This document shows positions 51,911-54,539 of a stretch of DNA of 64,000 nt, in pieces. The notes under the pieces are model-generated. The model searched no databases and had not been told where the DNA came from. It worked only from the letters and a program-made list of their open reading frames with translations. The stretch is from Halobacteriovorax sp. JY17. Its GTDB lineage: Bacteria > Bdellovibrionota > Bacteriovoracia > Bacteriovoracales > Bacteriovoracaceae. Position 1 is the first letter of the stretch. Each line of letters starts with the position of its first letter. The stretch spans positions 124,001 to 188,000 of the forward strand of contig NZ_NJER01000002.1 in the NCBI RefSeq assembly GCF_002753895.1, in the 5' to 3' direction. The translations under genes were made by a program, and so were the position numbers.

Positions 51911-51937
51911 AAAGGCCCACTTTGTGGGCCTTTTTTA
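51911..51937 (+). terminator. intrinsic terminator of rplM-rpsI
   Basis: AAGGCCCAC (51912-51920), TTT loop, GTGGGCCTT (51924-51932), then more T (to 51936). It lies only 11 bases before the start of the UvrA paralogue, so that gene is reached by read-through or has its promoter further upstream. Confidence 0.93.
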
Positions 51938-51947
51938 TTTGAGAAAA

Positions 51948-54539
51948 ATGAATCATACTCATATAAGAATAAAAGGGGCAAAGACTCACAATTTAAAGAA
52001 TATCGATGTGAGTTTCCCCTTAAACTCTATTACCTGTATTGCAGGACCTTCCGGATCGGGAAAGTCTTCTCTTGCTTTTCATACCATTCTTACAGAGTCT
52101 AAAAGAAGATTCATGAACTCTTTTCCTAGTGATGTGAAGTTCTTTTGGGATATTCCTCAGTCTGCAGATGTGGATGAAATAACTCCTGTGTTACCAGTTT
52201 GGGGATTGGCACAACATAATCCAGTTGTTGGATCTAGACCCGCAGCAATTGATTTAATGAGTGTAGGAGATCTTTTTTCAAAGTTACTTTTTAACATGGG
52301 AAGAAATTATTGTTCAACTCACTTAGTTCCACTTGAAGTTAATTTATCTATAGTTGGAATTCTTGCCTTTTTGGAAGAGCAGAACTTGTCTGATAAGGAT
52401 GTAGTACATTTCTTTTTAGACTCTGAGGATTATTTAAAGATTCATGGAGATGGTTTCTATCCCTCAAGGTCCTTCGGAGAAGGAGTAAATGAGTTTGATG
52501 AAGGCGATGAATATTGGGAATTATTTAGATTAAGGGCTTCTAAATTACAATCAATGGAGAAGAAGCTTGCTGATGTTGGCTTAGTTAATGCCTCCGGCCT
52601 GGTGCTTATTTATATACCAAATAAAAATTTAAAAAAGCTTTTTAGAATAAGTAAAAATAGGCAATGTCCAAAATGTGGAGAAGTGGAGAAAATAAATATT
52701 TCGTCACCATCTGTCTTTTCTCCCTTCACTCCATTAGGAGCCTGTATAGATTGTTCAGGACATGGAAGAAATTTAAAGTATGACAGAGTGAAGATAGTGA
52801 AAGATGAAAGACTTTCATTAAAAGAGGGAGCCGTGAATTTCTTAACGTATTCGAGATTCTCTCATTTAGAGCCTCTAATGCTTAAGGAGGCCAAGAAGGC
52901 TGGGTTTGATATAACAATTCCTTTTCACAAGTTGTCTCGAAAGGTTTGGAAGTTCTTAGAGGAAGGTGCAGGGCAATTCTGTGGACTGTTTGAGCTTTAC
53001 GAGTACTTGGAGTCTAAAAGGTATAAGAAGAACGTCAGAATTCTTATTCGATCATTGAAAACTGAAGTCCTTTGCGAATCTTGTGAGGGAACAAGACTAA
53101 AGAAAGATGTTTTAAGCTTTAGAGTTCCAGAGGAAAAGAAGTATTCATTAAGAGATATTCTCTTGTTTAATTTTGAAGAGCTTTTTGCATTTATTGGAAG
53201 AATCAAGGAGCAAAGAGAGAGAATTGAGAATTGGGAAGAAGTTAAGAAGATAGTTGGCAGTCTTGAAAGAATTTTGAAAGTCGCTATTGATTTAGGACTT
53301 GGAAGAGTTCTGTTACAAGAAAAAGTGAAGTCTTTGAGTATTAATAACTACCAAAAAATATTACTTGTAAAATACCTGTCTTTCGTGGGGTCTGGATCTC
53401 TTTTCATTTTAGATGAAGCAAGCTTAGGTTTAGATGCTAATGAGGTAAAGGTTTTATGGAAGTATCTTCAAATACTAAAAAAGGAAGGAAACACAATTAT
53501 TCTTGTAGATCATAATGATTACCTGCAGAAGAATTCTGATGAAGTTATTATCATGGGGCCGGGGGCAGGTCATAATGGTGGTGAAATTACTTATCAAGGA
53601 AAGTTTCAAAAAACAAAAAAACTAAAAGTTGAAAGTAGGAAAAAGAGAGAGCTTAAGAAGACGAATATTTCAGGAATAAGTATCGGCCAGTTTGTTCAAA
53701 AGGAAATAGAATTTAAAGTTCAGGGAGTTAATCTTGTTAGAGGAAAGAGCACTTCTGGAAAAAAAGATTTATATATTGAAGCTCTTGGAAATATTGTCTC
53801 TGAAGTTTTAGGGCTAGATAAAATATCCAATGTAGATGTTGAGTATAGGAGGCCAAAGAATTTATTTAAGTATGAAAAAGTATTAGTTCTAAATTCGAAA
53901 TTTAATAAATTTAGTTCAAGATCAACAGTAGGGACAATGGTGGGTTTAACTCCTTACATTCGAAAGCATTTTGCAAATTTAGCAGTCTCAAAAAATTTAA
54001 ACCTAAAAGAAGGTCATTTTTCTTCAAACTCAGATCTTGGAAAATGTTCTACATGCGAAGGGAGAGGTCTTCAAAGCATTGATATGCAATTTTTAGAAGA
54101 TGTTCAATTTGTTTGTGACGACTGCAAAGGAATGAAGCTTAAACCATTTCTTGCAACAATTTCAGATGGCTTCCATACTATTTATGAAACCCTAAGTAAG
54201 CCTATGAATGAAATCTTACCAAATCTAAAATTAACTCCAAAAGGTAAGAGAATATGGGAATATTTGAAGTTATTGAATTTAGACTATCTAAGCCTAGATA
54301 GGTCGTTAAGCTCTTTGTCTGGTGGAGAGAAGCAGAGGTTGAAGCTTCTATCCGAGCTTCAAAAAAGTATTGAGAACTCATTAATCATTCTTGAAGATCT
54401 TTCTTTTGGGCTTTCTCGCCACGAAATTTATAGAATAGGAGAATTTGTCCAAGATCTAACGAATAATGGGAATACCATTGTCTTAATCGATGAAAACGAG
54501 CATTTCTCAGGCTTTGTGGACGAAATTATTCAGGTTTAA
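51948..54539 (+). CDS. divergent UvrA paralogue with one degenerate ATP site
   Basis: An 863-residue member of the UvrA family of tandem ABC ATPases. The N-terminus IRIKGAKTHNLKNIDVSFP and Walker A GPSGSGKSSLAF (about 32-43) match UvrA. Zinc-module cysteines are near residues 239-242 and 700-725. The first signature (LSINNYQ near 461) is lost, but Walker B1 LFILDEA (about 484) and H-loop VDHND (about 520) are kept. In the second half Walker A reads GKSTSGKKD, Walker B2 LIILEDL, and the H-loop has no histidine (IDENEHF), while signature LSGGEKQR (about 790) is intact. It may be a UvrA2-type protein. GTG 51924 was rejected as start because it lies inside the terminator. Confidence 0.85.
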   Translation: MNHTHIRIKGAKTHNLKNIDVSFPLNSITCIAGPSGSGKSSLAFHTILTESKRRFMNSFPSDVKFFWDIPQSADVDEITPVLPVWGLAQHNPVVGSRPAAIDLMSVGDLFSKLLFNMGRNYCSTHLVPLEVNLSIVGILAFLEEQNLSDKDVVHFFLDSEDYLKIHGDGFYPSRSFGEGVNEFDEGDEYWELFRLRASKLQSMEKKLADVGLVNASGLVLIYIPNKNLKKLFRISKNRQCPKCGEVEKINISSPSVFSPFTPLGACIDCSGHGRNLKYDRVKIVKDERLSLKEGAVNFLTYSRFSHLEPLMLKEAKKAGFDITIPFHKLSRKVWKFLEEGAGQFCGLFELYEYLESKRYKKNVRILIRSLKTEVLCESCEGTRLKKDVLSFRVPEEKKYSLRDILLFNFEELFAFIGRIKEQRERIENWEEVKKIVGSLERILKVAIDLGLGRVLLQEKVKSLSINNYQKILLVKYLSFVGSGSLFILDEASLGLDANEVKVLWKYLQILKKEGNTIILVDHNDYLQKNSDEVIIMGPGAGHNGGEITYQGKFQKTKKLKVESRKKRELKKTNISGISIGQFVQKEIEFKVQGVNLVRGKSTSGKKDLYIEALGNIVSEVLGLDKISNVDVEYRRPKNLFKYEKVLVLNSKFNKFSSRSTVGTMVGLTPYIRKHFANLAVSKNLNLKEGHFSSNSDLGKCSTCEGRGLQSIDMQFLEDVQFVCDDCKGMKLKPFLATISDGFHTIYETLSKPMNEILPNLKLTPKGKRIWEYLKLLNLDYLSLDRSLSSLSGGEKQRLKLLSELQKSIENSLIILEDLSFGLSRHEIYRIGEFVQDLTNNGNTIVLIDENEHFSGFVDEIIQV

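Follow-up and report, generated by a model that had tools for sequence, protein, structure and literature searches.

The UvrA paralogue of Halobacteriovorax sp. JY17 is, as read from its sequence, a UvrA in which the proximal composite ATP site has been kept and the distal composite site has been dismantled. We consider it probable that the protein is a DNA clamp or ATPase of the UvrA fold that is uncoupled from UvrB and works with the proximal site only, much like the laboratory mutant K643A. The gene lies at 51948..54539 of the analyzed stretch of 64,000 nucleotides (hereafter the window), on the + strand like all the features described below, and encodes 863 aa from an ATG start directly 3' of rplM-rpsI. 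The protein matched UvrA in profile and PDB searches, showed about 30% identity to the canonical UvrA of its own genome, and scored below the curated cut-offs of TIGR00630 and NF001503 (371.7 bits against 729.8 and 375.2 against 1147, respectively).

State of the Two Composite ATP Sites

The ATP sites of UvrA are composite, with the proximal site formed by ATP-binding domain I and signature domain II, and the distal site by ATP-binding domain II and signature domain I (PMC6486640). The motifs of the paralogue were read against the canonical UvrA of the same genome. Walker A1 (GPSGSGKS, aa 33-40, 52044..52067), the glutamine of Q-loop 1 (Gln89, 52212..52214), Walker B1 (LFILDE with D489 and E490, 53400..53417), H-loop 1 (His522, 53511..53513) and signature 2 (LSGGE, aa 790-794, 54315..54329), all belonging to the proximal site, were kept. 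On the distal side, signature 1 was degenerate (LSINN, aa 463-467, 53334..53348), the glutamine of Q-loop 2 was replaced by Ser650 (53895..53897) and the histidine of H-loop 2 by Glu849 (54492..54494). The consensus was lost at the Walker A2 position (GKSTSGKK, aa 599-606, 53742..53765), where the P-loop Lys605 remained and the fourth-position Gly and the Mg-binding Ser/Thr, the latter replaced by Lys, were gone. The Walker B2 position read ILED (E816-D817, 54393..54398), with the DE of UvrA turned into ED; most orthologues have EN there. As this exchange is acid-for-acid and the P-loop lysine is kept, weak distal nucleotide binding is possible in the window protein. The tail C-terminal to H-loop 2 measured 12-27 aa in the paralogues versus 46-51 aa in UvrAs that retain it, and the window protein ended 14 residues after Glu849.

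The initial annotation had listed Walker A1, Walker B1, H-loop 1 and signature 2 as retained and Walker A2, Walker B2, H-loop 2 and signature 1 as lost, and both lists were correct against the genome's own canonical UvrA. Its view of one dead and one live site also held, since the retained motifs were all proximal and the altered ones all distal, a pattern found in 62 orthologues. A signature 1 that had merely shifted could be discarded, because the alignment was gap-free across 50 orthologues and ran on into a conserved YQ[RK]. An LSAGE-like signature alone does not mark a dead site, as the plasmid class II UvrAs L112, L113 and L118 carry LSAGE or LSSGE as signature 1 together with intact distal Walker motifs and otherwise intact distal sites. 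Another plasmid class II UvrA, from Streptomyces cellulosae (L114), has VALDM instead of VEHDM at H-loop 2, with its other motifs intact.

Conservation Across the Family

Orthologues of the paralogue were present in 79 of the 100 genomes of the class (Bacteriovoracia) that were at least 85% complete. Full-length orthologues reached profile scores of about 1050-1240 bits, compared with less than about 490 bits for canonical UvrAs, and a peptide-pattern scan of the genome contigs returned, besides this family, a single ordinary UvrA from Clostridia and one ABC protein that is unrelated. Motifs were counted in 62 distinct orthologues. Walker A1, the Asp and Glu of Walker B1, H-loop 1, signature 2 and the glutamine of Q-loop 1 were each intact in 62/62, while in the distal set the catalytic Glu and signature 1 were intact in none, the His in one and the Walker B2 Asp in five. 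The glutamine of Q-loop 2 was likewise lost family-wide (0/62), whereas canonical UvrAs and the second UvrAs treated below retained both glutamines. The arrangement is thus asymmetric (consensus/degenerate), with losses limited to one composite site and common to the family.

Loss of the distal P-loop is lineage-specific and falls outside this family-wide pattern, since its consensus was intact in 40/62 orthologues and its Lys was present in 58/62. The consensus was gone in the window's genus and in 17 other sequences, which corresponds to about 5-6 changes on a tree inferred after removal of the motif columns. Given that the P-loop state takes 6 changes on this motif-free tree, the loss of distal catalysis is ancestral to the family and the loss of P-loop 2 a later event, which probably occurred more than once. 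The replacement of Walker B2, mostly FEN[LI]SFGLS, was itself conserved, and this argues for reuse rather than erosion.

These results bear on another reading, in which the degenerate distal site still binds nucleotide and the protein is a two-site machine with one catalytic site. The consensus P-loop 2 and the P-loop Lys in the orthologues counted above, as well as the conserved FEN[LI]SFGLS motif, are in its favor, but the P-loop consensus has disappeared in the window's genus and the 17 other sequences, and no orthologue has kept Q-loop 2 or signature 1; we regard it as possible, with some doubt. For the P-loop-intact orthologues it overlaps with the proximal-site-only reading that we prefer. 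That the gene is a decaying or non-functional copy is extremely improbable. Several motifs have been lost and a long branch (1.3 changes per site) leads to the clade, as might be expected of decay, but dN/dS was 0.035 overall and 0.032 in the second half (one pair, with an unsaturated dS of 0.37), which indicates that the paralogue is not decaying. Moreover, the proximal elements were invariant over 62 sequences, the gene position was conserved across the whole class, and the frames were open and stop-free in nearly all copies. The low dN/dS, with the proximal set at 62/62 and the distal catalytic set at 0-1/62, bears out the earlier suggestion of a coherent loss rather than random decay.

Domain Content

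The paralogue contains three zinc modules and an insertion domain, which are features of class I UvrA. The first pair of zinc module 1 is C122/H125 (52311..52322), with its partner C376/C379 at 53073-53084; module 2 (C240, C243, C266, C269; 52665..52754) and module 3 (C700, C703, C723, C726; 54045..54125), the latter in signature domain II, were kept. The insertion (DNA-binding) domain occupies 52782..53060, with a PF17755 match at aa 279-371. In the canonical UvrAs of Bacteriovoracaceae (L035:2531-5332 and relatives), zinc module 2 has lost its first cysteine pair, and so has module 1 in most of them, while the paralogue keeps both pairs.

At the position of the UvrB-binding domain (aa ~130-235, 52335..52652) lies a domain whose sequence was unrecognizable. 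PF17760, the UvrB-binding domain family, gave no match in the window protein at E 1 and was absent among the families listed for 25 paralogue members at E 0.01, whereas it matched canonical UvrA copies at 1e-20 to 1e-26. The HH probability for this region was 2% between paralogue and canonical UvrA and 0.2% between paralogue and second UvrA, compared with 99.7% between second and canonical UvrA. The domain modeled alone had a pLDDT of 79. Foldseek found no significant match for this isolated model; in VIA-align, the six best of 992 chains were UvrB-binding domains of UvrA (Z 4.9-5.8), with the next unrelated row at 4.9. The model suggests that the UvrB-binding-domain fold may persist in the paralogue with a new surface. 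By a strict pattern, the R216/E222 pair, which we placed in the alignments by what we take to be the E. coli numbering, was visible in 17/23 canonical, 2/15 second and 0/50 paralogue sequences. With only 2 of 15 second UvrAs showing it, the pair was already changing in that lineage. In E. coli UvrA, R216/E222 are part of the UvrB surface (PMC3025350).

Since the distal site and a recognizable UvrB-binding domain have both been lost, we infer that the paralogue has a job independent of UvrB. The DNA-contact positions appear to be largely kept or conservatively changed, apart from a near-invariant switch of Arg730 to His: assuming that R712, R722 and R730 are the correct numbers for these contacts, the R712 equivalent was found in 49/50 paralogue sequences, K or R at R722 in 46/50, and His in place of R730 in 49/50. 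The full-length AlphaFold model, made from five sequences, was too poor for dimer or site geometry (mean pLDDT 61, pTM 0.42).

Ancestry of the Paralogue

On the motif-free tree, the paralogue, the second UvrAs (L120-type) and one class III half grouped together (support 98/92 and 99/99), and the paralogue clade stood apart from class I and class II on a stem branch of 1.3 changes per site. Support for the second UvrAs as a single clade was 49/82. The insertion domain was common to paralogue and second UvrA (HH 99.9%, E 3.6e-31) and had 98-99 aa in both, versus 116 in the genome's own canonical UvrA. A profile search of 293 genomes of the phylum gave no further member of the paralogue family outside the class among the matches listed; the out-of-class matches examined had intact motifs and were second UvrAs, and in each of the nine second-UvrA genomes checked there was, in addition, a distinct canonical UvrA. 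On this phylogeny, the paralogue is a descendant of the second UvrA lineage, of which other genomes in the phylum still carry fully intact members.

Several observations concern the relatives of this lineage. The second-UvrA clade has a basal branch formed by L119, the N-terminal portion of a class III (tandem) UvrA of Mycetohabitans. The canonical UvrAs L178-L183 and L185, from other genomes of the phylum (G183, G179, G235, G204, G296, G311, G165), have only 11-45 aa at the position of the ~100-aa insertion domain and coexist with a second UvrA that bears this domain, so a division of labor is possible. A conserved ~900-aa neighbor of the second UvrA was considered as a repair partner and rejected, as it is a penicillin-binding protein.

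The initial annotation had proposed a protein possibly like UvrA2 but with a novel asymmetry. The asymmetry stood; the kinship did not, and derivation from UvrA2 or class II was ruled out by the tree and the domain content. Class II UvrAs, from which the UvrB-binding domain and zinc module 1 are deleted, have 4-6 aa where the paralogue carries a domain of about 115 aa; C122/H125 and C376/C379 are likewise present in the paralogue. A function of the class II kind (UvrA2/Ecm16/DrrC-like), in tolerance to DNA-binding drugs, also seems very unlikely. Class II proteins are indeed UvrB-uncoupled DNA binders that depend on the insertion domain (PMC10192343). However, they are placed elsewhere in the tree, they lack the two elements that the paralogue has in position, the distal Walker motifs of the class II examples are intact, and the conserved rplM-rpsI/Lon neighborhood of the paralogue is of a housekeeping kind and is not a resistance locus.

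Genome Context and the Canonical UvrA

The gene order TamB-BamA-rplM-rpsI-paralogue-(246-aa protein)-M10-type metallopeptidase-AMIN-type protein-Lon was conserved across the family at 40% protein identity, and the neighbors in this TamB to Lon block gave no functional clue. In most of the paralogue-free genomes inspected, the next gene of the block directly follows rpsI; the most basal paralogue copy (L049) lies outside the rplM-rpsI/Lon neighborhood. An intrinsic terminator of rpsI lies at 51911..51933, with its T-run stopping just 5' of the paralogue start codon, and a terminator was present in the rpsI-paralogue gap of most relatives inspected. Expression of the paralogue must therefore either begin farther upstream, with readthrough of the terminator, or begin in the gap itself.

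A complete canonical uvrA was found elsewhere in the genome, as the initial annotation had advised checking; its product has 934 aa with all motifs intact (C2, ~17.6-20.3 kb). With uvrB and uvrC likewise located elsewhere in the genome, the cell need not rely on the paralogue for ordinary nucleotide excision repair. The paralogue might pair with canonical UvrA in a heterodimer and modulate this repair rather than act by itself, which we judge unlikely. The two proteins are predicted to share the same overall fold, UvrB and UvrC are at hand in the same genome, and a canonical UvrA was found in every paralogue genome checked directly (G005 included), with most others showing both. Such co-occurrence says little, since canonical UvrA is near-universal. 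About one fifth of the class has no paralogue, and a canonical UvrA is still seen in most of those genomes, which means that UvrA does not need the paralogue, and the two proteins have diverged to about 30% identity. The genus of G005 had been a candidate for lacking canonical UvrA and was rejected when direct search found the copy. L127 (G080) and L128 (G017), from some Bacteriovoracaceae, are third UvrA-like proteins with all motifs intact, branching apart from the canonical copy.

Proposed Mechanism

The model of a UvrB-uncoupled clamp or ATPase with a proximal site only draws on mutants of UvrA. Without DNA, the distal-dead mutant K643A hydrolyzed ATP at 0.1/s; its rate was 1.4/s with native duplex and 0.3/s with lesion DNA, and the proximal-dead mutant K37A was nearly inactive (PMC6486640). 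In E. coli nucleotide excision repair, the distal site was dispensable and the UvrB-binding domain was needed (PMC3025350). We propose that the paralogue would dimerize on DNA like UvrA, with ATP turnover confined to the proximal sites (ATP-binding I and signature II) beside the DNA groove. By analogy with K643A, ATP would be turned over slowly in the absence of DNA and much faster on intact duplex, with the rate reduced again at a lesion. From the K643A rates, turnover on normal DNA and dwelling on abnormal DNA are expected, so that the protein would be let go by the former and held up on the latter. The rewritten domain at the UvrB position would then signal to, or recruit, a partner other than UvrB. 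Orthologues whose P-loop 2 is intact may hold a nucleotide at the distal site without hydrolysis, in the manner of asymmetric ABC transporters; in the window's genus this holding has probably gone too. Candidate roles are a lesion or structure sensor, protection from DNA-binding drugs, or signaling. More tentatively, a UvrB-independent DNA surveillance pathway may operate throughout Bacteriovoracia, with a proximal-only UvrA that passes abnormal DNA on to a partner docked on the rewritten domain.

Comparison With Known Systems

The separate jobs of the proximal and distal ATP sites of UvrA have been disputed from point mutants with conflicting results. Our search of the open-access literature turned up neither a UvrA-family member described as having a naturally dead site nor the same losses in any well-characterized family, a possibility that had been raised earlier. 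Nature appears to have made a one-site UvrA, previously seen only as laboratory mutants, by keeping one site and removing the other across a bacterial class. With intact sisters (the second UvrAs) and intermediates in which the P-loop is kept and catalysis lost, this natural family makes the capacity of the proximal site alone directly testable, and the paralogue suggests that the UvrA fold can be used independently of UvrB.

The paralogue shares with class I UvrA the architecture of two NBDs, the proximal site, the three zinc modules and the insertion domain, and differs from it in the dismantled distal site, the UvrB-binding domain that is unrecognizable by sequence and the missing C-terminal tail. 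The second UvrAs are its closest relatives in the tree and resemble it after signature 1, where most of them have GE[YF]QR, but they retain all ten motif elements, a recognizable UvrB-binding domain and the C-terminal tail. Class II UvrAs (UvrA2, Ecm16) resemble it in having the UvrA fold without recognizable UvrB docking and a DNA-binding insertion domain, whereas their UvrB domain is deleted, both ATP sites are kept and they form a separate branch. The degenerate site of asymmetric ABC transporters typically still binds ATP. Asymmetric ABC proteins are well known among transporters (e.g. PMC5216877, PMC5626490). CFTR and TM287/288 follow the same logic as the paralogue, with the Walker B and H-loop of one NBD lost together with the signature of the other, although they are membrane transporters. 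The laboratory UvrA mutants K643A/K646A and E854A, like the paralogue, have a disabled distal site and an intact proximal one; unlike it, they are engineered and their UvrB-binding domain is intact.
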